Source: Biomaibacter acetigenes
Lineage (GTDB): Bacteria > Bacillota > Thermosediminibacteria > Thermosediminibacterales > Tepidanaerobacteraceae
Direction of reading: 5' to 3'
NCBI RefSeq assembly: GCF_003691585.1
Contig: NZ_CP033169.1
Coordinates: 1,984,001 to 2,048,000 of the forward strand
Length of the DNA: 64,000 nucleotides
Below, in pieces: positions 5,777 to 13,242 of the stretch. Below the pieces are notes generated by a model. That model saw nothing but the letters and a program-made list of their open reading frames with translations, searched no databases and was not told where the DNA came from. The number at the start of each line of letters is the position of its first letter. Position 1 is the first letter of the stretch. The position numbers were made by a program, and so were the translations under genes.

Positions 5777-7105
5777 CTACATGCTCATTTTCTTAAGGGC
5801 TGCCCTCATCCTTTCATATCCGTCATTCAAGTCTTCTTCGGATACCGTAAGTATTGGCCTGAAGCGGATGCTGTGAGTGCCGGACGGCAGCACCAGCATC
5901 TTTTCCTCGTAACAGGTCTGGCGGAATTTATCCCTCAGGGCCGGGTTGGGTAGGCTGAATGCCGCCATCAAACCTTTATACCGCACATTGCTTATCAGTT
6001 CCGGAAATTCTCTTTCCAGTGCATGTAAATGGTCATGCAGAACTTTAGAAACTTTATTTACATGATCTAACACCTTATCTTCTTTTATTATCTCCAATAT
6101 CCTTGTGGAGCGCACCATGTCACAGAGGTTGCCTCCCCAGGTGGAGTTTATGCGGCTGCTCTCCACAAAACAGTTGTTTTCGACTTCATCTACCCTGCTA
6201 CCCGCCAGGATACCGCAGACCTGGGCTTTTTTGCCGAAGGCGAAGATGTCGGGTTTAACTCCATAGTGCTGCCATGCCCACATCTTGCCGGTGATGCCCA
6301 TACCGCACTGAACTTCATCGAAGATCAGCATGATGTCGTTTTCATCACATATATTTCTGAGCTGCTGGAAGAACTCCGGCCTGAAGTGGTTATCCCCGCC
6401 TTCGCCCTGAATGGTTTCAATAATTATGGCGCAAATGTCATCGGGATTCTCCTTTATAGCAGCCTTTATCTGGCTCAGCGATTCTTCCTCGGCTTTTTTA
6501 ATTTCTTCAAAGTGCTCTTCCAGAGGCCATATAATTTTGGGATTTAAAACCCTGGGCCAATCGTTGAATTTTGTAAAGTACATGTATTTTCTCGGGTCTG
6601 CTGTATTGGTGAGGGAAAGTGTATATCCGCTGCGACCGTGGAAGGCTTCTTTAAAGTGAATTACCTTTGTGCCCTTTTCAGCACTTTCTTTATATCCTTT
6701 GACAATGTTTTTACGGACCTTCCAGTCCATTGCAACTTTTAGGGCGTTTTCCACTGCCAGAGTTCCGTAGTCTATCAAGAACAAATGCTTAAAACCTTCG
6801 GGAGCAGCCACTTCCATAAAGGTTTTTACGAAATCGGCCATTTCGACGGTGTAAATATCGGAGTTTGCCACCTTGTTTACCGCTGCTCTGAAAACCCTTT
6901 CTTTGAATTCGTCATTGGCAAGTTTGGGATGGTTTAAGCCCAGCGGAGATGAAGCAAAAAATGTATAAAAATCCAGCCAATCGGTGTTATCCCGGGCGTC
7001 GATAATGTGGCTTCCAAAGGATTTTTCCAGGTCTATCACTATGGGGAAGCCATCTACCAGAATATAGTTTTCCAGTGTTGAAAGAACTTCCTGTGGTTTA
7101 ACCAT
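5777..7105 (-). CDS. lat: L-lysine 6-transaminase
   Basis: A 442-residue class-III PLP aminotransferase that should move the epsilon-amino group of lysine to 2-oxoglutarate, giving aminoadipate semialdehyde (spontaneously piperideine-6-carboxylate) and glutamate. Family marks include DNTDWLDFYTFFASSPLG near the N-terminus, FKEAFHGRSGYTLSLTNT, the cofactor aspartate in LIFDEVQCGMG, and the PLP lysine in FGKKAQVCG, a motif that separates lysine 6-aminotransferases from ornithine or acetylornithine enzymes. The start is ATG 7105 with AAGGAGGA at 7111-7118; an upstream extension to 7198 in the same frame lacks a ribosome binding site. It is monocistronic, faces rocD across a 359-bp spacer, and has a sigma-54 promoter, so it is probably induced by an enhancer-binding activator for amino-acid catabolism. 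Confidence 0.9.
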   Translation of the reverse strand: MVKPQEVLSTLENYILVDGFPIVIDLEKSFGSHIIDARDNTDWLDFYTFFASSPLGLNHPKLANDEFKERVFRAAVNKVANSDIYTVEMADFVKTFMEVAAPEGFKHLFLIDYGTLAVENALKVAMDWKVRKNIVKGYKESAEKGTKVIHFKEAFHGRSGYTLSLTNTADPRKYMYFTKFNDWPRVLNPKIIWPLEEHFEEIKKAEEESLSQIKAAIKENPDDICAIIIETIQGEGGDNHFRPEFFQQLRNICDENDIMLIFDEVQCGMGITGKMWAWQHYGVKPDIFAFGKKAQVCGILAGSRVDEVENNCFVESSRINSTWGGNLCDMVRSTRILEIIKEDKVLDHVNKVSKVLHDHLHALEREFPELISNVRYKGLMAAFSLPNPALRDKFRQTCYEEKMLVLPSGTHSIRFRPILTVSEEDLNDGYERMRAALKKMSM

Positions 7106-7222
7106 AAAAATCCTCCTTCGCAAATATGATTTTATTGAACACGCAAACCCAACCTTATTTCTTAAACTACCTCCTTTCAAGCTGCTATGGTGTTTCACAA
7201 TTTTATGACATGTTTATTCTTT

Positions 7223-7238
7223 TGCAATTTTTGTGCCA
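7223..7238 (-). promoter_or_regulatory. Sigma-54 (-24/-12) promoter of lat
   Basis: On the minus strand TGGCAC-AAAAA-TTGCA. The GG (7237-7236) and GC (7225-7224) elements are separated by exactly 10 nt, the diagnostic geometry of RpoN promoters. Transcription would start near 7212, about 107 nt before the lat ATG. No competing sigma-A promoter was seen there. Confidence 0.85.
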
Positions 7239-7285
7239 CTTAGATACTGGCTATTTTATTATATTTACGCATAAAATTGCCGATA

Positions 7286-7298
7286 ATATTGCGAATAT
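7286..7298. promoter_or_regulatory. Possible upstream activator site (ATATT-GCG-AATAT)
   Basis: A 5-bp perfect inverted repeat around GCG, centred about 80 nt upstream of the predicted lat transcription start. That is within the range of enhancer-binding-protein sites. The rest of the 7106-7464 spacer is AT-rich with no gene. The assignment is speculative because short AT palindromes are frequent by chance. Confidence 0.25.
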
Positions 7299-7392
7299 CC
7301 GCTCATTTTTCGGCGACTTAATTCTATATTTACATTTAATCCGGTATTATATAAAATTATATTGAAGACTTTTAAAAATAGTATTATGTATA

Positions 7393-7421
7393 TTGACATT
7401 TTATTTCATGGGATGTATTAT
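7393..7421 (+). promoter_or_regulatory. Sigma-A promoter of rocD
   Basis: TTGACA at 7393-7398, 17-bp spacer, TATTAT at 7416-7421. The start would be near 7428, 37 nt before the rocD ATG. Confidence 0.8.
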
Positions 7422-7464
7422 TATTCATAAATATGTATAATTATAAATTTAAGGGGGTTATCCC

Positions 7465-8655
7465 ATGTCAAAAAATCAAGAACTCATCAATCTCACGGAA
7501 AAGTATAGCGCTCATAACTATCATCCTTTGCCCATAGTCATTTCAAAGGCAGAAGGTGTGTGGGTGGAAGATCCCGACGGCAACAAGTACATGGATATGC
7601 TCAGCGCTTACTCCGCTGTAAATCAGGGCCACAGACACCCCAAAATAATTTCCGCCTTAAAGGAGCAAGCAGACAGGGTGACTTTGACTTCCAGAGCTTT
7701 TCACAATGATAAGTTAGGTCCGTGGTGCAAAAAAGTGTGTGATATCACCGGTAAAAACATGGTGCTGCCCATGAACACCGGGGCCGAAGCTGTTGAAACA
7801 GCCATTAAAGCCGCCAGGCGCTGGGCCTATGATGTGAAAAAGGTCCCCGACGGCCAGGCCGAAATAATAGTTTGTGCAGGTAATTTCCATGGCAGGACCA
7901 CTACCATCATCTCTTTTTCTTCCGATGAAGACTATAAACGAGGATTTGGTCCTTTTACCCCCGGATTTAAAATCATTCCCTATGGTGACATAGAAGCGTT
8001 AAAATCAGCCATTACAACAAATACCGCGGCTTTTCTGGTAGAACCTATTCAGGGCGAAGGTGGTATTAAGATCCCCAAAGAAGGATTCTTGAAAGAAGCC
8101 TATGAATTTTGCAAGAGCAACAAGGTCCTTTTTATGGCTGATGAAATACAGACAGGCCTGGGAAGGACGGGAAAACTTTTCGCCTGCGACTGGGAAAACG
8201 TGGTGCCCGATGTATATATTTTGGGAAAAGCCCTGGGAGGTGGAGTTGTTCCCATCTCGGCAGTGGTGGCGGATGCGGAAATCCTGGGAGTGTTTGAACC
8301 CGGTTCCCACGGCTCTACATTTGGAGGGAATCCTCTGGCCTGTGCATGTTCCATCGCGGCCCTGGAAGTTATTGAGGAAGAAGACCTTGTTCAAAAATCT
8401 CTGAGGATGGGCGAGTATTTTATGAGCAAACTGAAGGAGATCAAAAACCCATTAATCAAAGAGATAAGGGGCAAGGGCCTCCTTATAGGAATAGAGATGG
8501 ACAAAGTTGTAAGGCCCTATTGCGAAAAACTCATGGAACTGGGATTACTCTGTAAGGATACCCATGAAAACGTCATACGCTTTGCTCCGCCTCTTATCAT
8601 AAAAAAAGAGGAAATTGACTGGGCCATGGAAAAAATAAAGGCTGTGCTGGGATAA
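7465..8655 (+). CDS. rocD: Ornithine aminotransferase
   Basis: A 396-residue PLP enzyme converting ornithine and 2-oxoglutarate to glutamate-5-semialdehyde and glutamate in arginine/ornithine breakdown. The N-terminal region ([19 protein letters not shown]) is typical of RocD, as is [18 protein letters not shown]. The cofactor-contacting aspartate is in [14 protein letters not shown] and the Schiff-base lysine in [24 protein letters not shown] binds the phosphate. The ATG at 7465 follows AAGGGGGTTATCCC. It has its own promoter and terminator and is divergent from lat, so the pair forms a small basic-amino-acid catabolic locus under two different sigma factors. Acetylornithine aminotransferase is the main alternative, but the N-terminus favours RocD. 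Confidence 0.92.
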
Positions 8656-8722: not shown

Positions 8723-8817
8723 TGGCGGGAGTATGTGGGAATTGAACCCACCCCGGAGGTTTTGCCCCCGATGCCGGTTTTGAAGACCGGAAGGCCCACC
8801 AGGACCTATCTACCCCC
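8723..8817 (-). tRNA. selC: tRNA-Sec (anticodon TCA)
   Basis: A 95-nt selenocysteine tRNA on the minus strand. The anticodon stem-loop is CCGGT-CTTCAAA-ACCGG with anticodon TCA, read against UGA. It has the long acceptor helix of this tRNA (5' GGGGGTAG with 3' ATACTCCC and G73), a long D stem (GGTCC-TGGT-GGGCC), an extra-long variable arm (GGGGG/CCTCC) and a T arm GTGGG-TTCAATT-CCCAC. The 3' CCA is encoded at 8725-8723. It lies 31 nt downstream of selB and is probably co-transcribed with selDAB. Confidence 0.96.
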
Positions 8818-8848: not shown

Positions 8849-10771
8849 TCAACCATACAGGCTGCTTCCGGCTATCCTCACTTCTTTCACGCGCCTGGTG
8901 GCCTTAATGCTGTCCATATATTCCAATAGGGGAAGGGCATATTTGCGTGAGGTCCCCAGCATATCCCTGAAGGCTGAAACCGCCAGCTCTTTATTCTCTA
9001 CAAAATATTGCTGCAGGAGATGCAGTGCTTTTTCCACCCACTCGGCAGACATGTATATGTCTTCGTTGATTTTAATGAGCTTGCCTTCGCCGGTAAGTCT
9101 TAGCAACACATCCTTTACATCCTTCTCCTGATTTGATGGGAATTTTGACATCACTTCTTCGATGGTAGGCGGCGCCCAACCGCTTTCCGTAAAAATCTGC
9201 TGTATTTCCCTGGAAACTTCCTGCTGCAATGGGCTCAACACTACGGAAAATCCTTTTTTCTTTATGATATTTCCCCTGCCTTCCACAAGCCCTTCATTCA
9301 TCCATTTTCCCAGCAATGCTTCAAATATGCCGGGTTCAAGATTTATCCTGCTTCTTAATTCTTCTTTGGCTATTCCTTCGTTGAGAGGAAACTTTTTATG
9401 ATAATCCTGTATAATAGCAAGGGTTTCCCGGGCAATATCGTTGTAAAATTTAGTGTCAAAGAGAACATCTTCTCCCGATACTTTAAGCAAAAGGGCCCTG
9501 CCTTCAGCATCCAAAGCAGTGGCCACCTCTCCCATTTGCTTAACATTTTTTCCTGCATAAGGGCAAATATCCCGCAGGCTAAGGTATTCCCTGCCGAAGA
9601 TCCTCAATAAAGCTACGACAAAGTCCTTTAATTCTCCTGAAAAGGTCCTCTTCAGAGCTTCTAATGCTTCTTTCCGGCGGTCTTTTTTCATACGTTTAGG
9701 GTTAACGAAAAGAATCTGTCCCCCACCGATGGTGGTAACGGGTGAATAGCTTCTGATAACATAATAGTCTTTATATACACATGCTATAGGTTCTTCCATC
9801 AGCAATAGCACGAAGGATTCTTCTCCCGGCGAAAGTTCCTCCCCATCAATTAAATTAACCCTCGCCAGTGCCTCTTTGGTGCCAATGTGAAGCCGTATCC
9901 TGGCTCTGTTTTTCAAAGGCCCGGGGGCATCGTCTATGAGTTTTAAATATGCATAAGTCTTTGTAACCGAAAAAAGCGTCCCGAATGGAGCCACAATATC
10001 TCCCCGCTGGATATCTCCGGTTTTCACATCGGCTAGATTAAGGGCAGTCCTCTGCCCCGCCTCAGCTTTATCCCTGCTTTCGCCGTGGACTTCTATGGAC
10101 CTCACCCTGGTTTTTCTTCCTTCGGGGAAAATCTCTACTTCATCGCCGGTTTTCACCATGCCGCAGAGGAGGCTTCCGGTCACCACGGTACCTATTCCCT
10201 GCAGGGAAAACACCCGGTCCACTGGCAGGCGGAAAGGGGATTCCTGGTCCTTTATAAATTCGTCCCGGCACATTTCGTCAATAGCCGTTACCAATTGCTT
10301 TAAGCCCTCGCCGGTGGTGGACGATACCGGAATTATTGGGGCTTTCTCCAGAAATGTTCCCCTTACCTCTTCTCTGACTTCTTCTATAACCATATCCAGC
10401 CATTCTTCATCCACCAGGTCCTTTTTGGTCAGGACTATGAGACCTCTTTTCACATTTAAAAGTTTTAATATATTCAGATGTTCCCGGGTCTGGGGCATGA
10501 CTCCCTCGTCGGCGGCGATCACCAGAAGCACCATATCTATGCCTCCGGCCCCGGCCAGCATGTTCTTGATGAATTTTTCGTGACCGGGCACATCCACTAT
10601 ACCCACAGTTCGGCCCGAGGGAAGGGTCATGTGGGCAAAACCCAGATCTATGGTTATTCCTCTCTTCTGCTCTTCCTTCAATCTGTCTGTATTTATTCCG
10701 GTCAGTGCCTTTATCAGTGTTGTTTTACCGTGGTCAATATGGCCGGCTGTCCCCAGTATAATGTTACTCAT
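8849..10771 (-). CDS. selB: Selenocysteine-specific translation elongation factor SelB
   Basis: A 640-residue GTPase that delivers Sec-tRNA to UGA codons marked by a SECIS hairpin. The N-terminal G domain shows [12 protein letters not shown] (P-loop), DVPGHEKF and TKKDLVD (guanine specificity), then beta-barrel domains 2 and 3 to about residue 350. The rest is the SelB-specific domain 4 of winged helices that bind SECIS RNA (for example [20 protein letters not shown] and the C-terminal [20 protein letters not shown]). The ATG at 10771 overlaps the selA stop in ATGA, so the two are translationally coupled. tRNA-Sec follows 31 nt later. Length and domain set are normal for the family. Confidence 0.97.
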
Positions 10772-12171
10772 AGCGCTTTCCCCACCATCTCCACTATTTT
10801 TTCTACATCTTTTTCCGTTATGGTCCTTACGTCAAACAACAATTTATCCTTTTTTATCCTTGCTATCACGGGGGTCGGAACTTTTCGCAGCCTTTCGGCC
10901 AGTTCCCCGGAGGAAATGTCATGGACACTTACGGCCACGGCTCTGGTTGGAATCTCCGCTCCTGGCAAAGACCCTCCCCCCGCCTGGGAAACATCGTCGA
11001 CTATCTCCACTTTTCCCTTTCCGGTTAAAACCCCTTCAAGCCCTTCGGCAAGTTTTCGGGCCCGGTTCTCCATAGCATCTTTAGATTCTGTGAGCATGGC
11101 CAGCACCGGAATATGCTGCCACAGGCCATCCTTATAAAGCCGCAGCACTGCTTCCAGAGCCGCCAGGGTAAGTTTATCAATGCGCACCGCCCTGGTGAGG
11201 GGATGACGTTTGATTTTGGAAATGTACCCTTTTTTTCCTACTATAATTCCGGCCTGGGGGCCACCCAGGAGCTTGTCGCCGCTGAAGGTCACCAGGTCCA
11301 TCCCCGCTTTTACCGAATCCTGAACGGTGGGTTCTTCGGGAAGGCTGTAAGGCTTTAAATCCACCAGCACTCCGCTGCCCAGGTCTTCCATTACCGGCAG
11401 GTTATGTTTTGCCCCAAGAGTTATTAATTCCTCATTTGACACCTGGGAAGTGAAGCCCACCAGTTTAAAGTTGCTGGTATGTACTTTCAAAAGAAGTGCC
11501 GTATTTTCATTTATGGCCATCTCATAATCTTTAAGGTGGGTTTTGTTGGTAGTTCCTACTTCTACCAGCCTGGCGCCGCTCTGGGCCATGACATCGGGAA
11601 TCCTGAAACTGCCGCCTATTTCCACCAGTTGCCCCCTGGAAATCACCACTTCGTGACCGGAGGCCAGGGAAGAAAGGCAGAGCAGCACCGCCGCCGCATT
11701 GTTGTTCACCACCATGGCATCCTCGGCACCGGTTATGTCGCATAAAAGTTCCCGGACATGACTGTAACGTTCTCCCCGTTCCCCCCGCCCGATGTCAAAT
11801 TCCAGATTTGAATACGCTTTAGCCACCATTTCGATTCTCTTCATAGCTTCTTCGGGAAGGGGAGCCCTCCCCAGATTAGTGTGCAAAACCACACCGGTAG
11901 CATTTATGACGGGTCTTAAACTGTAAGGAGAAAAAGATAATTTGTTTATTGCCAGGGAAATAACTTCATCTTTTAGTTCATTCTCACTTTTATCGGTCGC
12001 ATCTCCGCTTTCCAGTTTCTCCATTATTTTAACCCTGACAGTTTCCAGACTTTCCCGCAATATGTCAGTTAAATAATTTCTATTAAATATTGTCATCAAA
12101 TCCTTTATTTCGGTTTCTTCCAGGAGGTCAGCCACCTTGGGCAGTTTTCTCATGATATTATTTTTATCCAA
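10768..12171 (-). CDS. selA: L-seryl-tRNA(Sec) selenium transferase
   Basis: A PLP enzyme of about 467 residues that converts Ser-tRNA(Sec) to Sec-tRNA(Sec) using selenophosphate, as a large ring-shaped oligomer. It shows the family N-terminal helical domain ([12 protein letters not shown]), [16 protein letters not shown], and the PLP lysine in [13 protein letters not shown]. The start is placed at TTG 12171: AAAGGAGGA lies about 7 nt upstream of it, while the in-frame ATG at 12153 is too far away and TTG 12189 precedes the ribosome binding site. The 3' end overlaps selB by 4 nt, and selD ends 33 nt upstream. Overall this is a tight selD-selA-selB-selC unit. Confidence 0.96.
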
Positions 12172-12204
12172 TCTCACTCCTCCTTTCAAAGAAACAAAGA
12201 ATTT

Positions 12205-13242
12205 TTACTCCAGAATTATCCTATAATCTTGAGGTTCAACTACTTTTCCTATTACCGTAGCGTCTTTTACACCGCTTTCTTTTAGAAGCTTAAGTAACAC
12301 AGAAGCTCTATCCTCACTCACGGATATCAAGAGTCCGCCGGAAGTCTGGGGGTCAAAAGCCAGGTCTGTTAATGCTTCAGGAACTTCTGAACTTATACTA
12401 ATTTTACCCTTAAGATATTTCTTATTATGATATAATCCTGCCGGCAAAATCCCCATGGCCGCCAGCCCTTCCATCCCGGAAAGTATGGGCAGTAATCCGG
12501 CTTTTAATCGCAAAGTAACCTTCGAAGCTTCTGCCATTTCAAAGGCATGGCCCAAAAGTCCAAACCCCGTTATATCGGTGATGGCATTGACGCCGATTTG
12601 CACCGCAGCCTTCGATGCTTCCCTGTTGAGGGTTGACATGACTTCCACAGCCTGCCTTTCAGTCTCTTTACTGAGCATATTCGCTTTCAACGCGGTGGTG
12701 GCTACTCCAATGCCCAGGGGTTTTGTGAGTATTAATACATCCCCGGGTTTTGCCCCGGCATTGGTCATAATTTTATCAGTAGAAATCTCCCCTATAATAG
12801 ATAAGCCGTAGATGGGTTCGGGACTTTTTATGGAATGGCCTCCTCCCACTACGGCTCCTGCTTCTATCACCTTGTCGGCTCCACCCCTTAGAACATCGGG
12901 CAATATGCTTTCCACCAGTTCTTCAGGGAAAGCCACCACATTTAAAGCAAGAATGGGGTTTCCGCCCATAGCATATATGTCGCTTAATGCATTGCAGGCG
13001 GCTATCTGCCCGAAGGTGTACGGGTCATCCACTACCGGCGTGAAAAAATCCACGGTGTGGATGAGGGCAAGATCATCATTTATTTTATATACAGCCGCAT
13101 CATCGGAGGTGTCAAGTCCCACCAGGAGATTTTCGCTTTTTGTTACAGGTATCTGCCGCAGAACCTGCGACAGGGCCTCGGGGCCAAGTTTTGCCGCTCA
13201 GCCGGAGCTGCAGGTAAGTTCGGTTAATTTGATTTTGGTCAT
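12205..13242 (-). CDS. selD: Selenide, water dikinase SelD (selenoprotein, in-frame UGA)
   Basis: Makes selenophosphate from selenide and ATP, the selenium donor for SelA. The true start is ATG 13242 behind GGGAGGTG, giving MTKIKLTELTCSSG, then TGA at 13200-13198 read as selenocysteine, then AAKLGPEAL. The position is the catalytic Cys/Sec of the family (CSSGU/C..K). Translation without recoding would start only at 13122 (MGLDTSDDAAV) and lose the active site. The rest is typical: TVDFFTPVVDDPYTFGQIA, NALSDIYAMGG and GGGHSIKSPEPIYG. The full protein is 345 residues, the usual length. It sits 28 nt downstream of comEA and upstream of selA. Confidence 0.95.
13168..13197 (-). promoter_or_regulatory. 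Putative bacterial SECIS hairpin in selD
   Basis: Immediately downstream of the UGA (13200-13198) the mRNA can fold GGCC-CCGA-GGCC (13185-13174) with weaker flanking pairs. Bacterial SECIS elements lie in this position and are read by SelB. The fold was judged by eye only, and an overlapping alternative (CTTG/CGAG) also exists. Confidence 0.5.

Follow-up and report, generated by a model that had tools for sequence, protein, structure and literature searches.

A predicted sigma-54 promoter before lysine 6-transaminase and tandem ARG boxes before ornithine transaminase in a shared spacer of Biomaibacter acetigenes

Two aminotransferase genes, lat and rocD, are transcribed divergently in Biomaibacter acetigenes, and the question that they raise is how the region between them controls each gene, and whether sigma-54 control has moved here from the roc side to lysine breakdown, as a sequence-only reading of this locus proposed. 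The window analysed is the whole 64,000-nt stretch around the two genes, taken from a genome that consists of a single contig of 3.40 Mb and that has Tepidanaerobacteraceae, Thermosediminibacter, Fervidicola and Thermovorax as its closest relatives with a name. On the minus strand, lat (5777–7105) encodes a predicted L-lysine 6-transaminase of 442 aa, which scores 622 bits against the equivalog model TIGR03251 (cut-off 520.8) and has the lysine epsilon-aminotransferase 2CIN as its best solved relative (427 bits). On the plus strand, rocD (7465–8655) encodes an ornithine–oxo-acid transaminase of 396 aa with 745 bits against NF003145 (cut-off 656). Both scores lie above the cut-offs and bear out the gene identities that had been proposed from the letters alone. 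The spacer between the two genes (7106–7464) is 359 bp long. An Rfam search of the lat–rocD region found no riboswitch or other RNA, and the only hit was a selenocysteine tRNA further on (8727–8817, minus strand; RF01852, 75.7 bits), which is adjoined by selB-, selA- and selD-like genes at 8849–13122. We computed sites, conservation and gene content, and we infer binding, the direction of regulation, the inducer and the direction of the RocD reaction. We consider it quite probable that the spacer comprises two separate control modules, sigma-54 for lat and sigma-A with ARG boxes for rocD; this degree of confidence is a joint one for the whole explanation, that is both modules, an enhancer-binding protein (EBP) at lat, and ArgR together with an anabolic RocD.

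The putative sigma-54 promoter of lat, TGGCACAAAAATTGCA, is located at 7223–7238 on the minus strand with GG at −24 and GC at −12. It matches TGGCAC-N5-TTGCA with 0 mismatches, is the sole exact match within the window, and fits TGGCAY-N5-TTGCW with the GG-N10-GC spacing that the sequence-only reading had pointed out. The predicted transcript would start at ∼7212 and carry a 5′ leader of ∼107 nt. In this leader, a second AAAGGAGG-like motif lies 5′ of the true ribosome site (7150–7190, minus strand), and similar leader motifs are present in the related loci L044, L123 and L049. A count over the 3.40-Mb genome gave 10 occurrences of TGGCACNNNNNTTGCW and a single one of the reversed control; the TGGCACNNNNNTTGCW matches other than that of lat mostly adjoin EBP genes. 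The earlier reading had also looked to rpoN and EBPs elsewhere in the genome; rpoN was found there in single copy, and a profile search with PF00158 gave ∼28 full EBPs among 37 matches, one of them a RocR-like orphan after argS. Because the element is exact, rpoN and ∼28 EBPs are encoded, and both the element and a site upstream of it are conserved, lat is very probably sigma-54-dependent. In the mechanism that we propose, sigma-54 RNA polymerase would wait in the closed state at 7223–7238, and an EBP bound at a TGC...GCA site ∼73 bases before the lat start would open it. This EBP would probably belong to the RocR/OrdR class, with its gene elsewhere in the genome. Thus lat would be induced by an amino acid signal, presumably lysine or a relative.

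The upstream site had been placed at about −80 by the sequence-only reading, which pointed to the palindrome ATATTGCGAATAT. This palindrome is indeed present at 7286–7298, on neither strand in particular, and is centred at −80 relative to the predicted start of lat. As a conserved unit it was rejected, because it is kept as a palindrome only in L044, and the part that relatives retain is the overlapping TGC...GCA site of the TGCAATATTATCGGCA type at 7278–7293. The candidate enhancer site is therefore CGCAATATTATCGGCA (7278–7293, minus strand; centre ∼−73), which has matching sites in relatives and was assigned to the TGCAA..TTGCA class, the class of ornithine-type EBP sites. A possible second, overlapping pair of half-sites, GGCAATTTTATGCG, came from a combined TGC..GCA and sigma-54 pattern search of the host genome and G001 (7268–7281, minus strand). 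In L044, L048, L050, L051, L066 and L129, a site of the form TGCAATATT-N-T(T)CGGCA, 16 or 17 bp long with variations, is located ∼55 bases upstream of the −24 element, at a position similar among the relatives; in L123, the TGCAATATT-N-TCGGCA class of site is less clear, and in L046, L047 and L049 none was seen. The upstream regions of the last three can be aligned with one another and contain no clear ornithine-type site; a conserved stretch around TATATTTATTA....GGGGC lies ∼250–300 bases before lat in these three loci. The Fervidicola group has a second, stronger copy of the site (TGCAAGAAAATTTGCA in L050) ∼21 bp further upstream. When scored with a matrix derived from ornithine-type promoter sites (those of ornithine-catabolism EBPs, lat excluded), the loci of this group (L050, L051 and L066) were equalled by 0 of 300 shuffles, and the site in the window is a weak match (p ∼0.04) that several unrelated sigma-54 promoters of the genome equal. 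The sites upstream of lat resemble those of RocR/OrdR-type ornithine regulators, although the one in the window does so more weakly.

Which EBP might serve lat can be narrowed by the distribution of such sites. In nine genomes searched for the TGC..GCA pattern together with a sigma-54 element, non-coding matches before genes belonged mainly to lat and to an ornithine-racemase-like cluster, with ornithine operons that carry ord–ortA or nhaC-like genes (read by eye) in some. Six matches occur in the host genome, and only those of lat and of one cluster precede a gene in non-coding DNA. This cluster (genome positions 2112000–2124000) holds a GTPase-like gene, an ornithine-racemase-like gene and a RocB-like peptidase (names read by eye), with divergent sigma-54 elements and an EBP of its own (2118429–2120000). 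The RocR-like orphan EBP lies just downstream of argS (3228780–3230222), is conserved in four genomes of the order, and has no sigma-54 target adjoining it. We put about even odds on one of these two EBPs being the lat activator, which would be a refinement of the explanation favoured here and not an alternative to it. Both have the RQ-x-LQY type of recognition helix and reciprocal best hits in G018 and G015, the lat-bearing genomes that were compared, the EBP of the ornithine cluster has a TGCAAATTTTTTTTGCA site, its cluster shares with lat the two matches named above, and the orphan has no target of its own at hand. Against the proposal stand the weak similarity of the site in the window and the presence of both EBPs in G013, a genome without lat. 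Three EBPs that are absent from G013 (L154, L159 and L204) were each rejected, as each sits with its own operon, for dihydroxyacetone kinase/glycerol, for a tyrosine phenol-lyase or tryptophanase-like enzyme plus transporter, and for a glycyl-radical enzyme plus transporter, respectively (read by eye). L049 has an ACT-domain EBP close to lat, but this EBP adjoins a gene of the methionine gamma-lyase type (by eye) and was therefore not accepted as the lat regulator. The OrdR-type EBP of G015 and G018 (L260 and L228) has no ortholog in the host genome. One further EBP frame of the host (3092007–3092509) is in two overlapping pieces of 229 and 270 aa, which may mean that the gene is broken or that a frameshift arose in sequencing.

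On the other side of the spacer, the sigma-A promoter that had been proposed for rocD stands: TTGACA-N17-TATTAT at 7393–7421 on the plus strand has 11 of 12 consensus bases and is identical in L044 and L123. The sequence-only account of the spacer was nevertheless incomplete, in that it missed tandem ARG boxes on this side. Box 1, TGTATTATTATTCA (7414–7427, plus strand), has 0 mismatches to TGNATWWWWATNCA and overlaps the −10 of rocD, and box 2, TGTATAATTATAAA (7434–7447, plus strand), has 1 mismatch and lies just after the predicted rocD start. The boxes are 20 bp apart and thus cover the −10 and the start; box 1, and the pair as a whole, are kept in L044 and L123, and such a pair arose in 0 of 20,000 shuffles of the spacer. 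Throughout the host genome, only two pairs are without mismatch to the tandem pattern, one before argF–argG–argH and the other before rocD; one more, with one mismatch, precedes a carA-like gene, and control patterns gave counts of 0. A pair of this kind is also found at the argF promoter, where it lies over the −35 and −10. The genome has one argR gene (PF02863, 94 bits; cut-off 25). No sigma-54 element faces rocD in the spacer; its promoter is of the sigma-A type instead, unlike the sigma-54/RocR arrangement of the catabolic roc operon in Bacillus subtilis. We propose that sigma-A polymerase would start rocD from TTGACA-N17-TATTAT, and that ArgR, when arginine is plentiful, would bind the tandem boxes over the −10 and the start and shut the gene.

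What rocD is for depends on the rest of arginine metabolism. There is no match to ArgJ, and neither ArgC nor ArgB scores above the cut-off, in G001, G004 and the host genome, and no ArgD-like protein was seen in the last; by eye, argF, argG and argH were read as one operon, and proB and proA were located as well. Because proB, proA, argF, argG and argH are there, and argJ, argB, argC and an argD-like gene were not found, rocD most likely yields ornithine from glutamate semialdehyde for arginine synthesis. Such an anabolic use of RocD is known from Staphylococcus aureus, which makes arginine from proline (PMC3510247). Judged from its operators and from the gene content, rocD looks like a repressed, biosynthetic source of ornithine, and, given its ARG boxes in a genome without argJ, argB and argC, it probably does not correspond to the catabolic roc gene of Bacillus. 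However, AhrC activates rocABC and rocDEF in B. subtilis (PMC9245794), and hence ARG boxes alone are no proof of repression. An AhrC-like ArgR might likewise activate rocD at the tandem boxes for the breakdown of arginine or ornithine, and genes resembling those of ornithine breakdown do exist elsewhere in the host genome. We consider this unlikely, as the boxes cover both the −10 and the start at a sigma-A promoter close to consensus, the argF promoter is overlapped in like manner, and a cell in which argB, argC and argJ were not found would have no other evident source of ornithine.

The related genomes show that the element before lat does not depend on the neighbour. A sigma-54 element that agrees with the consensus at 10 or more of 11 bases lies upstream of lat in L044, L046, L047, L048, L049, L050, L051, L066 and L123, and L045 is the sole exception among the ten close relatives; L129, in genome G016, has the element before lat as well. 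Among 79 related lat loci of wide taxonomic range, the same threshold was reached in 9, compared with 0.28 expected, and no element was found outside the close relatives, which are few in number and akin to one another. In L048, L050, L051 and L066, rocD is not the neighbour of lat, and the genes flanking lat in L046, L047 and L049 differ yet again. Thus the sigma-54–lat unit occurs independently of rocD, and it probably arose before lat and rocD became paired.

The exception, L045, belongs to a sister MAG (G009, contig C52) that is 68% complete, and its Lat is 92% identical. At 7837–7906 of this locus, lat lies behind TTGACA-N17-TATAAT (12 of 12 consensus bases) followed by two perfect ARG boxes, and the sigma-54 element is missing. 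Here rocD is not beside lat and none above the cut-off was found in the sequenced part of this genome; it could lie in the missing third. This looks like a natural promoter exchange at lat. That the exchange turned an activated catabolic gene into a repressed biosynthetic one, with Lat having taken over the job of rocD in supplying ornithine, is a stronger claim that we regard as quite unlikely. A lat gene whose sigma-54 promoter appears to have been swapped for an ArgR-type promoter would in any case be a natural example of promoter exchange that is open to bench testing.

With the relatives at hand, the proposed shift of control from roc to lysine breakdown can be judged. In B. subtilis, rocDEF is under sigma-54, RocR and activation by AhrC (PMC9245794), which is the pattern that the sequence-only reading expected of rocD. 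Accordingly, control of the catabolic roc type (sigma-54 plus activator) would have moved from rocD to lat, leaving rocD catabolic with a plain sigma-A promoter; that B. subtilis rocDEF needs these three factors, and that rocD lacks a sigma-54 element here while the adjoining lat has one, would fit such a move. We consider it very improbable. The element is borne by lat in genomes where rocD is not adjacent, and therefore lat needed no rocD to acquire it; rocD is above the cut-off only in the host genome, G001 and G004 among the eleven genomes searched; and its type of operator is common to argFGH and a carA-like gene. The shift was thus not upheld, as lat keeps the sigma-54 element without a neighbouring rocD and rocD bears ArgR-type operators. 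A chance match, with lat using another promoter, is extremely improbable, as the element is kept in nine of the ten close relatives at 70–150 bases from the start codon while the flanks change, even though TGGCAY-N5-TTGCW turned up in 26 of 20,000 dinucleotide shuffles of the spacer and the lat start site is a predicted position.

With two separate modules as the preferred reading, lysine 6-transaminase would join the genes that sigma-54 is likely to control in anaerobic Bacillota. In the literature searched, we found no report of sigma-54 control of a lysine 6-transaminase; sigma-54 control of lysine catabolism as such is already known from KamR (PMC4428206). The kam locus of Bacillus thuringiensis, under sigma-54 and KamR, likewise represents sigma-54-dependent lysine catabolism in Bacillota, predicted from sequence in our case, but its first enzyme is lysine 2,3-aminomutase and its regulator gene is adjacent, whereas no EBP gene adjoins lat. 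OrdR and other sigma-54 regulons of Clostridiales (PMC6615313) share with this system amino acid catabolism, Fis-type EBPs and ornithine clusters under sigma-54; the main text of that survey contains neither ‘lysine’ nor ‘aminotransferase’. For rocD, the nearest parallel in function is the synthesis of arginine from proline in S. aureus (PMC3510247), where ornithine aminotransferase works in the biosynthetic direction, as we infer here; control by CcpA is described there, in contrast to the ARG boxes of rocD, and argJBC exist there and were not found here. An ornithine transaminase under putative ArgR control would be the probable sole source of ornithine in a genome without the acetylated route, and, if this is true, the name ‘rocD’ alone is no guide to arginine breakdown. 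With rocDEF and rocABC of B. subtilis, the present system has in common the rocD family, RocR-like EBPs, a protein of the arginine repressor family and ARG boxes. It differs in that sigma-54 would serve lat and not rocD, and in that tandem ARG boxes accompany a sigma-A promoter at rocD, as they do at the arg biosynthesis operon.
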